The notes under the pieces are model-generated. The model saw only the letters and a program-made list of their open reading frames with translations, was not told the DNA's origin and made no database searches. From Halolamina litorea (GTDB taxonomy: Archaea > Halobacteriota > Halobacteria > Halobacteriales > Haloferacaceae), in the NCBI RefSeq assembly GCF_026616205.1, contig NZ_JANHGR010000001.1, positions 1,984,001 to 2,048,000 on the forward strand: a stretch of 64,000 nt of DNA, written 5' to 3'. A program made the position numbers and the translations under genes. Positions within the stretch are counted from its first letter, which is position 1. Each line of letters begins with the position of its first letter. Shown here in pieces: positions 3,034 through 8,578 of this stretch.

Positions 3034-4194
3034 TTAGAGTTCGTTCAGCTTCCGCATCAGCTGGCCGCGGTACTCCTCGTCGGCCTTGACGCCCTTGAGT
3101 TCGAGGACGTTGCGCTCCAGTCGGTCGAGGGCAACGTGGAACGCGTGGTCGGCGCCGTAGCCCTCGCCGGAGCCGGCGACCTGGCCCTGCGTGGTGCGGA
3201 GGCGGATCTGACAGCGGATCAGCGGAGTGCCACGGAGCTTCTCCTTGTGCTGGCTGAAGCGCACGTGGGCGTGGAGGACGTTCATCTCCTGGAACTTGTC
3301 GACGACGGCGGTGGTGTCGGCGACGATATCCTCGCGGGTGAGGTCGTCCAGCAGGTTCACGTTCGTGATCTGGACGTTCATCGACTCCTCCTCGGTCAGC
3401 GAGAGGGCACGCAGCACGTCGGTCTTGGTGATGACGCCGGCGATGTCGGCGCCGGAGGGCGTCGCCGTCACGACGAGCCCCGAGATGTCGTTCTCGAACA
3501 TGACCGTGACGGCGTCGTCGACGGTCTCACCCGGCGTGATCGTCTGGACCGGGCTGGACATCAGGTCGTACACCGGGATGTCGAGCATCCGGTCGATCTC
3601 GCCGCGGCGGTCGCCCTCGCCCTGTCGCTCCTCGTCGCGCACGGCGAAGTTGACGATGTCGTTGGTCGTGATGATCCCCGTGAGTTCGCCGGTCTCGTTG
3701 ACCACCGGCAGCCGGGAGATGCCGTTCTCGCGCAGGCGGTTGATGGCCTTGCCCACGTGGTCGTCCTCGGTGACGGTGACGACGGACTCCGACGCGATGT
3801 CCCCGACGGTGATCGCTTCGAGGTTCTCGTGGACCGTACGCAGGATGTCGTCGGCGGCGACGATGCCCCAGAGGTTCTCGCCCTCGTAGACCGGAGCGAT
3901 CTTCACGTCGCCCTCGACGAGCACGCGGCAGACCTCGCGTACGTCGTCGTAGCGGGCGACCTTCGGGGGACTCCCGCCGCTCCGGGAGGACCGCACGATG
4001 GCCGACACCTTGGTGTCGTCCTCGACGTGGGACTGGATCAGTTGCTTCTCGCGAACGACGCCGATGCAGTCACCGTCCTCCATCACGACGATCCCTTTCG
4101 GGTTCTCCCGCTCGAAGAGCGACCGGACCTTCGCGACGCGGGTGTCGGCCTCGACTTCGGCGAACTCCTTGACAGCAATATCGGAGATATCCAT
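3034..4194 (-). CDS. Four-CBS-domain protein with a C-terminal HPF/RaiA-like ribosome-binding domain
   Basis: The protein has 386 residues. Four CBS motifs come first, at about 1-60, 62-120, 125-190 and 205-270; such pairs usually bind adenine nucleotides. From about residue 275 the sequence MNVQITNVNLLDDLTRED starts a domain of about 110 residues. It ends in a stretch of the form AFHVALDRLERNVLELKG, which matches the beta-alpha-beta layout of HPF/RaiA (S30AE) hibernation factors. The inferred role is nucleotide-dependent control of ribosome activity or storage under stress. The ATG at 4194 is preferred over the GTG at 4200 because a TATA-like CTTCAAGG lies about 27 nt upstream. The CBS assignment is certain. 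The HPF-like call rests on sequence pattern only. Confidence 0.85.
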   Translation of the reverse strand: MDISDIAVKEFAEVEADTRVAKVRSLFERENPKGIVVMEDGDCIGVVREKQLIQSHVEDDTKVSAIVRSSRSGGSPPKVARYDDVREVCRVLVEGDVKIAPVYEGENLWGIVAADDILRTVHENLEAITVGDIASESVVTVTEDDHVGKAINRLRENGISRLPVVNETGELTGIITTNDIVNFAVRDEERQGEGDRRGEIDRMLDIPVYDLMSSPVQTITPGETVDDAVTVMFENDISGLVVTATPSGADIAGVITKTDVLRALSLTEEESMNVQITNVNLLDDLTREDIVADTTAVVDKFQEMNVLHAHVRFSQHKEKLRGTPLIRCQIRLRTTQGQVAGSGEGYGADHAFHVALDRLERNVLELKGVKADEEYRGQLMRKLNEL

Positions 4195-4515
4195 AAGCAC
4201 TCAACTACTTTCCCCGGAGATGCCTTGAAGCTTGCCGCCCCGAGCCGGTCGCCGACGAACCACCCGAGACGGTACCGACTGGCACGGTCAGGACACGACT
4301 ATGGATGCCGAAAGCAGAAGGCGACGGAAGCTAACGAACCGAAGTCACGCGGCGATACGAACGACGAAACGCCCCGTAGAAGGGACCGATTACCGGGACA
4401 ACCTTCGTCTGAAAGGAAACGATCCCATGATTCCGAACGATCGGAGGAACTCGGGTGGTGAAACCCACATCACGCGAACTTTTTTCACAGTCATTTGATT
4501 GGGTACCGGTAGCCA
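4195..4515. other. Divergent intergenic region, no convincing gene
   Basis: This stretch of about 320 nt separates the divergent CBS and DUF2182 transcripts. It is visibly less GC-rich than its neighbours. The CBS promoter is near 4218-4230. A run of six T at 4480-4485, within CTTTTTTCAC, is the likely TATA element for the first DUF2182 transcript. A run of open codons on the plus strand (4232-4498) has no haloarchaeal codon bias and overlaps both promoters, so I do not call it a gene. Confidence 0.5.
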
Positions 4516-4587
4516 ATGTGGCACTTCGAACCGAACCGTGATCGTGGGTGGGGTATCGACGAACCGGCGACCTGGGGGGGTCGCTGA
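4516..4587 (+). CDS. Putative leader mini-ORF before the first DUF2182 gene
   Basis: A 23-codon frame starts with ATG at 4516, about 30 nt after the TATA-like CTTTTTTCAC, so it would begin almost at the mRNA 5' end. It encodes MWHFEPNRDRGW and continues to ...ATWGGR. It stops with TGA at 4585-4587, only 2 nt before the DUF2182 ATG at 4590 and in a different frame. It contains three Trp and one His. The second DUF2182 gene has a similar leader ending QWGER. The likely role is to deliver ribosomes to the downstream start; peptide-mediated regulation is possible. It may be untranslated. Confidence 0.5.
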   Translation: MWHFEPNRDRGWGIDEPATWGGR

Positions 4588-4589
4588 CC

Positions 4590-5462
4590 ATGGCGTACGG
4601 AAGCGCACGCCGTGAGGAGACCGAAACCGAGACGGGGCTGTTCAGCCTCGGACTCACTCGTGGGCGGACGGCGGTGCTCGCGATGCTGGGCATCGACGCC
4701 GTGTTCTGGGTGATGATGTGGGAAGGGAGCGTGCCGATGCCGGGGATGAACTGGCTGATGGGCGAGCGTTCCATCCCGATGGCGGCGCCGGGCGCGATGG
4801 AACTCGGGACGTTCCACGCCGGCGGGACGGCGTTCGTCGGCTTCTTCGTGATGTGGGGGGTGATGATGTGGACGATGATGCACCCCGCGATGGCGCGGTT
4901 CACGCGGGACTACACCGCGGCCCACCAGGGGTCGGCCGTCCAAACCGCGCTCGCGGTCACGGCCTTCTTCGCCAGCTACCACATCATCTGGATGCTCTCG
5001 GCAACGTTCCCGCTCGGGTTCCACGCCGGGCTCTCGGCGCTCGGCTACGAGGGGATTTACGGCTTCGTCCGGTCCCATACCGTCGGCGTCGTCGGCACGA
5101 TGCTGGTCCTGACGGGGCTCTACCAGCTCACGACGTTCAAACAGAACCTCCTGCGTGACTGCTGTGCGAACGTCAATCCCCACGAGGACGACATCCCGAC
5201 GGCGTTCCGTGAGGGAGTCTGGCACGGCACCCGCTGTGTCGCCATCTGCTTCGGCTTCTTCTTCCTGCTCATGCCGTTCTTCGGGGAAATGAACTTCTTC
5301 TGGATGGTCGCACTGACCACGCTCGTGACGATCGAACGGCTCCCGATCTGGGGCGACGACATCGCCGTCTCGACGGGTATCATCAGCCTGCTGGCGGGGG
5401 TCGTCGTCCTCGTCGCCCAGCCCGATCTCGGCATCTCGTTTACGATGTCGATGGGGATGTAA
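4590..5462 (+). CDS. DUF2182 family methionine-rich integral membrane protein, copy 1
   Basis: The protein has 290 residues with about six hydrophobic segments. It belongs to the family described as predicted metal-binding integral membrane proteins. Diagnostic stretches are MWGVMMWTMMHPAM (near 90-105), LRDCCANVNPHEDD (near 188-201) and FFGEMNFFWMVALTTLVTIERL (near 230-251). Met-rich motifs (VPMPGMNWLMGE, MSMGM at the C-terminus) and a Cys-Cys/His loop suggest ligands for a soft metal such as copper, but the substrate is not known. The ATG at 4590 is preferred over an in-frame one at 4548 because it directly follows the leader mini-ORF. A paralogue follows 200 bp downstream, and then an Lrp/TRASH regulator, pointing to metal homeostasis. 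Confidence 0.85.
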   Translation: MAYGSARREETETETGLFSLGLTRGRTAVLAMLGIDAVFWVMMWEGSVPMPGMNWLMGERSIPMAAPGAMELGTFHAGGTAFVGFFVMWGVMMWTMMHPAMARFTRDYTAAHQGSAVQTALAVTAFFASYHIIWMLSATFPLGFHAGLSALGYEGIYGFVRSHTVGVVGTMLVLTGLYQLTTFKQNLLRDCCANVNPHEDDIPTAFREGVWHGTRCVAICFGFFFLLMPFFGEMNFFWMVALTTLVTIERLPIWGDDIAVSTGIISLLAGVVVLVAQPDLGISFTMSMGM

Positions 5463-5618
5463 CGCCGCTGACTGCCGAAGGCGTCAGACAGTTCCGAACC
5501 GTGGCCTCCCCGTCGTTTACGGGAGATCGGCGCTGCGGCCCGGGGGTATTTTCGCTTACTCGACGGGCCACCGGCGGGTGTACGCTTTTTCACGCTGCTC
5601 TGTGTTTCGGGAACCAAC

Positions 5619-5663
5619 ATGGACTGGTGTGGGGGCCAAAACCGTCAGTGGGGGGAGCGATGA
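5619..5663 (+). CDS. Putative leader mini-ORF before the second DUF2182 gene
   Basis: A 14-codon frame, MDWCGGQNRQWGER, starts at ATG 5619, about 31 nt downstream of the TATA-like CTTTTTCAC (5585-5593). Its TGA (5661-5663) overlaps the DUF2182 ATG at 5660 as ATGA, a classic translational-coupling overlap. Its promoter and peptide ending (WG-x-R) resemble those of the leader of copy 1, suggesting that the leader was duplicated with its gene and then kept. Confidence 0.5.
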   Translation: MDWCGGQNRQWGER

Positions 5664-6523
5664 GCCTCCAGTACGATCCCGACCAACAGGACGGGCTGTT
5701 CGACCTGGATCACACCCGCGGGACGGCGGTGATCCTGGTCATGCTCGCGCTCGATGCGGTGTACTGGATATGGACCTACAACGGCGAGGTGCCGATGCCG
5801 GGGATGATGTGGCTGATGAACGAGCGGGGCATCCCGATGGCGGCGCCGGGCGCGATGGAACTCGGAACGTTCCACGTCGGGACCCTCGACGCCTACCTCG
5901 GCTACGTCGTGATGTGGGGCGTGATGATGTGGGCGATGATGATGCCTGCGATGACCCGCTTCGTCAGGGACTACGCCAACTCCCACCGCGGGTCAAGCCT
6001 CTCGGTGACCGGTTCCGTCGGCGGCTTCCTCGCGAGCTACCAGCTCGTCTGGCTGCTGACCGGCGTCATCCCGTTGGGAATGCATCTGGGCTTCACGCTC
6101 GCGGGCTTCGAGGGTATCTACGGCGCGGTCAAGAGCCACCCTCACGCGTTCGTCGGGACCGCGCTGATCCTGACCGGGCTCTACCAGTCGCTGTGGTTCA
6201 AAAACGGGCTGCTGCGTGACTGCTGTGCGAACGTCAACCCTCACAGCAACGACTTCTTCGACTCCTTCGGCCGGGGGCTGCGCCACGGCACGAAATGCGT
6301 GTTCATCACGTTCCCATTTTTCTTCTTCCTGATGCCGATATTCGGGGAGATGAACTTCTTCTGGATGGTCGGGCTGACCACGGTCGTCACCGTCGAGCGC
6401 CTGCCGTTCTGGGGCAACGAGGTGGCGACGGCGACGAGCCTGATCAGCCTCGCCGCGGGCGTCTACGTCCTCGTCATGCAGCCGAGCCTCGGACTCTCGT
6501 TCGCCATGTCGATGGGGATGTAG
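5660..6523 (+). CDS. DUF2182 family methionine-rich integral membrane protein, copy 2
   Basis: This 287-residue protein is a clear paralogue of the preceding gene. It has the same order of motifs: VPMPGMMWLMNERGIPM, MWGVMMWAMMMPAM, LRDCCANVNPHSND, FGEMNFFWMVGLTTVVTVERL and a MSMGM C-terminus. The ATG at 5660 is chosen over an in-frame start at 5501. It begins the conserved part, is preceded by a purine-rich GGGGGAG and overlaps the leader stop as ATGA. Having its own promoter-like sequence means the two copies can be controlled separately. The function is inferred to be metal-related membrane handling; the biochemistry is unknown. Confidence 0.85.
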   Translation: MSLQYDPDQQDGLFDLDHTRGTAVILVMLALDAVYWIWTYNGEVPMPGMMWLMNERGIPMAAPGAMELGTFHVGTLDAYLGYVVMWGVMMWAMMMPAMTRFVRDYANSHRGSSLSVTGSVGGFLASYQLVWLLTGVIPLGMHLGFTLAGFEGIYGAVKSHPHAFVGTALILTGLYQSLWFKNGLLRDCCANVNPHSNDFFDSFGRGLRHGTKCVFITFPFFFFLMPIFGEMNFFWMVGLTTVVTVERLPFWGNEVATATSLISLAAGVYVLVMQPSLGLSFAMSMGM

Positions 6524-6569
6524 CGCCCGGGAGCGGGGATTCTTTACTCGCGGTCGTCTACGACGGTCT

Positions 6570-7160
6570 ATGCGCGACCTCGACGAGACGGACATGACCA
6601 TCCTCCGAATCCTCTCCGCGGACGCCAGAGCGTCCTACAGCGAGATCGGCGAGGAGGTCGACCTCTCCGCGCCGGCGGTCTCAGACCGGGTGAGCCGGCT
6701 GGAGGAAGCCGGCGTGATCAGGGGGTTCACGCTCGACCTCGACCGCTCGCAGCTACAGGGCGGCGTCCCCCTGCTCGTTACTGTCGACGTCGATCCGGGG
6801 CACACGAGCGCCGTCCGGGCGGCCGTCGACGACATCGAGGCGGCCGAGCACGTGTTCCAGACCGCCGACGGAGACGTGGTGTTTCACGCCCGGCTCTCAG
6901 AGTCGGAGGTCGAGGAGGTGCTGGCGGGTGTCGCGGGCGCCGGCGGCGTCGCCGACTTCGACGTGACGATGCTCACCGACGTGGACTGGACGCCGACGGT
7001 CAGCGGCTCCGGGTTCGCCCTCGAGTGTGCGGAGTGTGGCAACACCGTGGGGAGTGAGGGCCAAGCGAGCAAGATCGGCGACTCGGTCTATCACTTCTGC
7101 TGTCTCACCTGCAAGGGGCGGTTCGAACAGCGCCACGAGCGCTTGGAGAGCGGCGCCTGA
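6570..7160 (+). CDS. Lrp/AsnC-type regulator with C-terminal TRASH metal-binding domain
   Basis: The protein has 196 residues: an AsnC-type winged helix-turn-helix (about 3-52, including VDLSAPAVSDRVSRLEEAGVI), a RAM-like alpha-beta domain (about 65-135) and a C-terminal TRASH domain. The TRASH cysteines are C153, C156, C177/C178 and C181, matching Cys-X2-Cys-X20-Cys-X3-Cys. Family members in haloarchaea act as metal (copper) responsive transcription regulators. The TATA-like TTCTTTACT near 6540 predicts a leaderless message at ATG 6570. Being 46 bp after two Met-rich DUF2182 genes makes these the natural candidate targets. The metal and direction of control are inferred. Confidence 0.9.
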   Translation: MRDLDETDMTILRILSADARASYSEIGEEVDLSAPAVSDRVSRLEEAGVIRGFTLDLDRSQLQGGVPLLVTVDVDPGHTSAVRAAVDDIEAAEHVFQTADGDVVFHARLSESEVEEVLAGVAGAGGVADFDVTMLTDVDWTPTVSGSGFALECAECGNTVGSEGQASKIGDSVYHFCCLTCKGRFEQRHERLESGA

Positions 7161-7268
7161 GGCCGTCGTCGTCCGTGCCGCCGCGGTCCGCACGCCGCCG
7201 ATGATCCACGGCAAACCCCGCCACCGGACCCGATGTTTCTTACTGTTGGCCGTCCGAGCGGATGGACC

Positions 7269-8069
7269 ATGCACGAACACGGTTCGACCGGCCGCGCGGC
7301 GCTCGCTCGCCGTGCGGCGGTCGCCGGTGGCGAAGTCGCCGCGGAGTTCTTCCGCACCGGCGTCGCCGTGGAGACGAAAAACGGCAAGACCGACGTGGTG
7401 ACGGAAGCCGACCGCGCCGCCCAACGCGAGGTCGAAGAGGTCATCCACGAGGAACACCGCGAGGAGCCGGTCGTCGGCGAGGAGGGCGACGCGCTGAAGT
7501 CGGTGCCGGAGCGCGGGCCGGCGTGGGTCGTCGACCCCATCGACGGTACGAACAGCTACGTCCGGGAGCTACCGACGTGGGCGACGGCCGTGGCGTGTGT
7601 CGAGGACGGTGAGCCGGTGGCGGCCTGCAACGCGCTGCCGGCGCTCGGGGACGTGTACACCGCGGACGGCGAGGCGGCGTACCGGAACGGCGCCGAGATC
7701 ACCGTCTCGTCGGTCGACGACCCCGAACGGGCCGCGGTCGTCCCGACGGTCTGGTGGGAACAGGACCGCCGCGACGAGTACGCCCGGGCGTGTGGAGCCA
7801 TCGTCAGGCGCTTCGCGGACCTCCGGCGACCCGGCAGCGCACAGGCCGCGCTGGCGATGCTCGCCGCCGGGTCGGTGGAGGGTGTGGTGACCAACGTGGA
7901 CACGAAACCGTGGGACACGATCGCCGGGGTCCACCTCGTCCGACGGGCCGGGGGGACTGTGACCGACCTCCGGGGTCAGCCGTGGCACCACGGCGCCCGC
8001 GGGCTGGTGGCGTCGAACGGCGCGCTGCACGAGGACGTGCTCGCGGCGGCGCGGGAGATCGACGACTGA
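7269..8069 (+). CDS. Inositol monophosphatase / fructose-1,6-bisphosphatase family phosphatase
   Basis: This Mg-dependent, Li-sensitive-type sugar/inositol phosphatase of 266 residues carries the family signature WVVDPIDGTNSYVRELP (near 78-94). Upstream are the metal-ligand stretch VVGEEGD and the KTDVVTEAD motif (near 39-47). Near 216-222 is TKPWDTIAG, the second family signature (WD-x-AAG type). The ATG at 7269 is chosen over an in-frame 7233 because the TATA-like TTTCTTACT at 7236-7245 would then serve as the promoter. It lies between two Lrp regulators on the same strand. The exact substrate (inositol phosphate, FBP or another sugar phosphate) cannot be fixed from sequence. Confidence 0.9.
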   Translation: MHEHGSTGRAALARRAAVAGGEVAAEFFRTGVAVETKNGKTDVVTEADRAAQREVEEVIHEEHREEPVVGEEGDALKSVPERGPAWVVDPIDGTNSYVRELPTWATAVACVEDGEPVAACNALPALGDVYTADGEAAYRNGAEITVSSVDDPERAAVVPTVWWEQDRRDEYARACGAIVRRFADLRRPGSAQAALAMLAAGSVEGVVTNVDTKPWDTIAGVHLVRRAGGTVTDLRGQPWHHGARGLVASNGALHEDVLAAAREIDD

Positions 8070-8128: not shown

Positions 8129-8578
8129 ATGGAACTCGACGAGACCGACAAACAGATCCTCCGCATCCTCCAGGAGGACGCTCGGACCCCATTCAGCGAG
8201 GTCGCACGCCGGATCGACATGTCGAGTGCGACCGTCCACGACCGGGTGAACAGGATGGAGGAGGCCGGCGTCATCCAGGGCTACCACGCGAGCGTCGACG
8301 CGCGGTCGGTCGGCTACGGCGTCAGCGCGTTCGTCGGCCTCCGGACCGATCAGGGCCGCGAGGAGGAGGCGCTCGCCCACCTCGCCGGCCTGCCGGAAGT
8401 GAAGGAGGTCCACCTGACGACCGGCCAGTGGGACGTGATGGTTCGGGTCCACGCCGAGGACACCGACGCGCTCAGAGAGCTAATGTTCGACCACATCGCC
8501 GACACCGAGGGGTTCGCCCGCTCCCAGACGATGATCGTCCTCGGCACCGACTACGAGGCCGACGGCCTGCCGATCTAA
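8129..8578 (+). CDS. Lrp/AsnC family transcriptional regulator
   Basis: This canonical Lrp protein has 149 residues. The N-terminal helix-turn-helix (about 5-52, with FSEVARRIDMSSATVHDRVNRMEEAGVI) is followed by a RAM effector domain (about 65-140, VGYGVSAFVGLRTDQGREEE...GQWDVMVRVH). Unlike the neighbour at 6570 it has no TRASH domain. The ATG at 8129 fits family length, and CACAAAG about 27 nt upstream could be the TATA box. Lrp proteins form dimers or octamers and sense amino acids. The target is unknown. Confidence 0.93.
   Translation: MELDETDKQILRILQEDARTPFSEVARRIDMSSATVHDRVNRMEEAGVIQGYHASVDARSVGYGVSAFVGLRTDQGREEEALAHLAGLPEVKEVHLTTGQWDVMVRVHAEDTDALRELMFDHIADTEGFARSQTMIVLGTDYEADGLPI

Follow-up and report, generated by a model that had tools for sequence, protein, structure and literature searches.

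The DUF2182 family (PF09948) now carries the name 'PpoB2, copper chaperone' in Pfam, and together with the copper work on PpoB2 of Marinomonas mediterranea, this makes outdated the statement, in an earlier note on the DNA studied here, that DUF2182 has no settled function. PpoB2, which belongs to COG5486, is reported to take part in the specific transfer of copper to the tyrosinase PpoB1 and was described as the first COG5486 protein to be given a physiological role (PMC2855505). In the literature that we searched, it is the one experimentally studied PF09948 member, and none comes from the haloarchaeal branch.

TRASH-Lrp regulators have been linked to copper in other archaea. The Halobacterium salinarum protein VNG1179C is a copper sensor that controls the pump yvgX and two HMA chaperones (PMC3551603). 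Pyrococcus CopR is released from DNA most strongly with copper and silver, and this release is weaker when the TRASH domain is removed (PMC7830388). Here, we describe a locus of Halolamina litorea in which genes of these two kinds lie side by side, compare it with its relatives across haloarchaea and consider what the combination may do.

Results

The window, by which we mean the whole 64-kb stretch of H. litorea DNA analyzed, carries on its + strand two PF09948 genes followed by a TRASH-Lrp regulator gene. The first, DUF2182-A (4590..5462, with ATG at 4590 and stop at 5462), encodes a PpoB2-type, Met-rich membrane protein of 290 aa that matches PF09948 at 5.8e-33; the second, DUF2182-B (5660..6523, ATG 5660, stop 6523), encodes a membrane protein of 287 aa matching at 2.5e-32. 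The two score 114.8 and 112.8 bits against a curated cut-off of 28.7 and cover positions 1-188 and 1-187 of the 188 in the profile. The third gene (6570..7160, + strand) encodes an Lrp-family regulator of 196 aa with HTH_24 and HTH_AsnC-type matches and a C-terminal TRASH domain (PF24273, TRASH_HVO_1752_C, 3.3e-21). All 47 of the 47 positions of PF24273 are matched and the cysteine set CAECG...HFCCLTC is intact. The coordinates and families given in the earlier note hold, and its claim of a complete TRASH cysteine set holds as well.

The note had also called both DUF2182 proteins Met-rich, and at 7.9% (A) and 8.0% (B) methionine, they are. The fetched loci encode 652 other predicted proteins of more than 200 aa; methionine averages 1.7% in these, with a 99th percentile of 4.5% and a maximum of 5.3%, so that none reaches 7.9%. 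Because DUF2182 proteins average 5.7%, high methionine is a trait of the whole family and is not peculiar to the window locus. Across 38 haloarchaeal PF09948 members, an MMxxMM ladder (M92, M93, M96 and M97), C191, C216, M234 and M239 are invariant; Cys192 and His212 are invariant within the close subfamily (n=20). An AlphaFold model of A is of high confidence and almost all helical (pLDDT 89.2, pTM 0.85). Foldseek found no PDB structure resembling this model (best E-value 0.4), and a search of PDB sequences with the PF09948 profile gave no match up to an E-value of 1.

A and B are 60% identical to each other and are sisters in the DUF2182 tree (support 99/94), which makes B a tandem paralogue of A that arose by duplication on the H. 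litorea lineage. The nearest relative of A, in genome G169, is 67-69% identical.

The surroundings of the trio speak to how it may have arrived. A CBS-domain gene (3034-4200, − strand) and an inositol-monophosphatase gene (7233-8069, + strand) flank it; in 6/6 congeners, these two genes are direct neighbors whose matched coding stretches are separated by some 150-250 bp. In the window, the distance between them is 3.03 kb, and the additional DNA contains the three genes and no others. We place the approximate extent of the inserted block at 4245..7225. GC content dips to 0.58-0.60 around 4001-4750, at its left edge, and runs at 0.63-0.67 across the two DUF2182 genes compared with 0.65-0.74 around the block. 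PF09948 matches are absent from all six congeners and present in 21 of 170 genomes of the host family; Haloferax volcanii, which served as a named control genome, likewise has none. Sampling of three congeners for the regulator showed a single full TRASH-Lrp gene in each. Gain of a single block in H. litorea is the simplest reading of this pattern; that six congeners lost it in parallel, or that it arrived in more than one step, is possible but less likely. Neither flanking repeats nor mobile-element genes were recognized at the block edges. Past the inositol-monophosphatase gene, the window contains another Lrp-family gene (8129-8578) that lacks TRASH, and Lrp-type matches occur at this position in at least some congeners (for example, G055 and G050).

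The regulator in the block is not the only one of its kind in this genome. A second TRASH-Lrp gene, at G000:C1:1563370, encodes a protein 54% identical to the window copy and adjoins CopA (locus L090), the same place that it occupies in congeners. In a tree of regulators, this second copy clusters with the congeners' copies (100/99), and the window copy, on a long branch, is placed elsewhere without strong support. Unlike most of its relatives, the window gene has neither copA nor an HMA chaperone gene next to it. The window regulator is thus a diverged paralogue and not the genus-typical copper regulator.

The conserved DUF2182/TRASH-Lrp neighborhood that the earlier note raised as a check did not materialize. 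Scanning genome contigs with a single protein turned up just three loci. Our full survey covered 23 distinct close-subfamily DUF2182 loci (about 49-69% identity), none of which has a TRASH-Lrp gene closer than 4 kb. G377 comes nearest, at a distance of ~4.3 kb, and direct adjacency was seen only in the H. litorea genome. We did not accept co-occurrence across genomes as a test of linkage: almost all host-family genomes sampled contain a strong TRASH-Lrp homologue, which makes such co-occurrence uninformative.

Promoter sequences give a mixed picture. For an operator search, we built an EM motif from copA, HMA and regulator promoters; the resulting motif, TTTcGAATCCAAAGT, is common to copA, HMA and TRASH-Lrp promoters of other family members, mostly 55-94 bp upstream, and scores 14-24 bits in most promoters carrying it. 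Promoters with TTTcGAATCCAAAGT were recorded at L113, L115-L117, L119, L123, L124 and L126-L130. Upstream of A, ACTTCGAACCGAACCG (4523..4538, + strand) is a weak and unconvincing match to this operator-like motif; with 5.3 bits, it is the best near the trio but ranks ninth in the 64-kb window. It has to be read against the absence of the motif from the genus's own CopA promoters too, an absence that suggests a change of specificity there. Two further sites are probable promoter elements, CTTTTTTCAC upstream of A (4479..4488, + strand) and CTTTTTCAC upstream of B (5585..5593, + strand), each of which has no other match on the two strands of the 64-kb window. The pattern CTTTTT(T)CAC occurs twice in the window, once upstream of each DUF2182 gene, a rarity that is not an independent test because the pattern was first noticed at these very sites. 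Related DUF2182 genes lack it in their upstream DNA, and it may be a promoter element that was copied along with the gene. Finally, our reading of the sequence finds a TATA-like TTTA ~27 bp before the regulator start, and given this element, the regulator may be transcribed separately from A and B.

These observations bear on whether the regulator belongs functionally with its neighbors. If A and B handle copper and the TRASH-Lrp gene is a passenger that controls itself or CopA, standing beside them by chance, one would understand why the adjacency is not conserved, why A and the copper promoters have no clear operator in common and why the regulator might have its own promoter, all the more so as TRASH-Lrp genes occur almost throughout the host family. 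We nonetheless regard a passenger as doubtful, for all three genes fall within one interval in which six congeners have no genes, and the regulator gene, which adjoins neither CopA nor HMA, follows B on the same strand after a gap of only 46 bp.

Other haloarchaeal DUF2182 genes have copper-related neighbors of a different sort. At 9 of the 23 close-subfamily loci, spread over four families, a gene for a small HMA-domain protein lies directly upstream of DUF2182 on the same strand, at 66-409 bp; the HMA identity was confirmed with Pfam on one representative, and since one genus supplies four of the nine loci and a second genus two, the independent cases number fewer than nine. COX1, subunit I of heme-copper oxidases (PF00115), is near DUF2182 at 13 of 14 sister-clade loci and at 4 of the 23 close-subfamily loci, including the basal L087. 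The sister-clade clusters combine COX1 and DUF2182, often with HMA, an ArsP_1 permease, and beta-propeller and DUF389 proteins, and the permease carries a TRASH-like insert in the representative scanned. No CuA-type COX2 motif was found near the COX1-DUF2182 clusters (17 loci, with a fetched stretch of usually 20 kb). Such clusters recur at L087, L088, L089, L091-L096, L098-L100, L107, L110, L157, L159 and L070. Neither HMA nor COX1 is present beside the window locus. A clade apart from that of the window pairs DUF1326 with DUF2182 at 6/6 loci (L101-L106, in six haloarchaeal genomes), with no COX1 or HMA nearby.

This linkage weighs on two further explanations. Were the methionines of DUF2182 structural and the linkage accidental, there would be no metal role here at all; a metal function of haloarchaeal DUF2182 is so far a prediction, and several close relatives of A and B, including the nearest in G169, have no recognized metal gene alongside. 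Linkage to HMA, TRASH and COX1 nevertheless recurs across families, the Met and Cys positions are invariant and PpoB2 provides a precedent, so we consider the absence of a metal role very improbable. Methionine and cysteine ligands bind several soft metals, and the trio might instead be a cassette for resistance to silver, mercury, zinc or cadmium, not one supplying copper for cuproenzymes. TRASH domains are indeed found in sensors and chaperones of metals other than copper, such as MerH for Hg(II) (PMC3600143), but the sole PF09948 protein studied experimentally in the searched literature acts on copper, a heme-copper oxidase subunit sits within the sister-clade clusters and the window shows no recognizable genes for mercury, arsenic or cadmium next to A and B. 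Resistance to another soft metal thus seems unlikely to us.

Discussion

Three things are new here: the trio is best read as one ~3-kb insertion, its regulator as a second, diverged copy, and what is conserved around haloarchaeal DUF2182 genes is linkage to HMA and COX1 instead of adjacency to TRASH-Lrp. The copper link that the earlier note had proposed gains strength beyond what its reader could show, resting on PpoB2 and on the HMA/COX1 linkage in relatives. HMA genes upstream of relatives, the TRASH permease and COX1 in sister clades, the PpoB2 precedent and arrival as one block all point toward copper; the part of the proposal that fell away is a conserved partnership with TRASH-Lrp (0/23).

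We put at roughly 0.6 the probability that the trio is a laterally acquired cassette in which A and B transfer Cu(I) at the membrane under copper-responsive control by the adjacent regulator. A and B would bind Cu(I) through an intramembrane Met ladder (M92, M93, M96, M97, M234 and M239) together with Cys191/192/216, and would move copper or hand it over at the cytoplasmic membrane. The likeliest recipient would be a cuproprotein that lies in the membrane or outside the cytoplasm, for example a heme-copper oxidase or a blue-copper protein. With its TRASH cysteines, the regulator would detect copper in the cytosol and adjust the expression of A and B, and probably also its own. In mode, this would resemble PpoB2, with dedicated transfer to a cuproenzyme, and not the CopA efflux pump, which is encoded separately in the genome with its own TRASH-Lrp. 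A copper role is favored by the naming of PF09948 after PpoB2 and the copper work on that protein, the VNG1179C and CopR precedents, the one-block insertion, the HMA/COX1 linkage and the conserved Met and Cys residues; this explanation is weakened by adjacency in a single genome, the weak operator match, the lack of HMA and COX1 at the locus and the possible separate promoter of the regulator. The inserted block itself contains no cuproenzyme gene. Tyrosinase was discarded as a copper target of A and B, PF00264 having gone undetected in the H. litorea genome in a search run without a positive control.

Comparison with described systems helps to place the cassette. Like PpoB2, a membrane protein that reportedly delivers copper to its partner enzyme, A and B score above the PF09948 cut-off; unlike PpoB2, they have no adjacent tyrosinase gene, occur as two tandem copies and are linked to a TRASH-Lrp gene. 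The window regulator has the same domain order as regulators of the VNG1179C and HVO_1752 type, an Lrp HTH followed by a complete TRASH domain, but is a diverged second copy and is not next to CopA or HMA. The haloarchaeal HMA-DUF2182 pairs and COX1/ArsP-TRASH/HMA/DUF2182 clusters described here contain DUF2182 proteins of the same or a sister subfamily beside metal proteins, whereas the window lacks the HMA and COX1 partners and has a TRASH-Lrp regulator in their stead. The DUF1326-DUF2182 pairs of other haloarchaea (6 loci) share the Pfam family of A and B but form a separate clade with another cysteine arrangement. A possible analogue, in function only, is a membrane protein of an unrelated family that has important Met and His residues and serves a heme-copper oxidase.

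The clusters invite a broader and more tentative proposal, which we offer as a possibility well short of the main reading. Haloarchaeal DUF2182 proteins might be membrane proteins dedicated to carrying copper to the CuB site of COX1 proteins that lack a nearby CuA-type subunit II, with HMA proteins and the TRASH-bearing permease as partners, and the window cassette might be a mobile, duplicated offshoot with its own copper-sensing regulator.

Absent from six congeners, the trio offers a natural within-genus comparison for the gain of such a module. More widely, the linkage of HMA, TRASH permease and COX1 in haloarchaea provides a concrete test of PF09948 as a copper carrier family. Where aa3-type oxidases obtain the copper of their CuB site has been described as unknown (PMC5829832), and the COX1-DUF2182 clusters offer candidates for this source; if the CuB-carrier proposal is true, it would point to a component of the route by which these oxidases are supplied.
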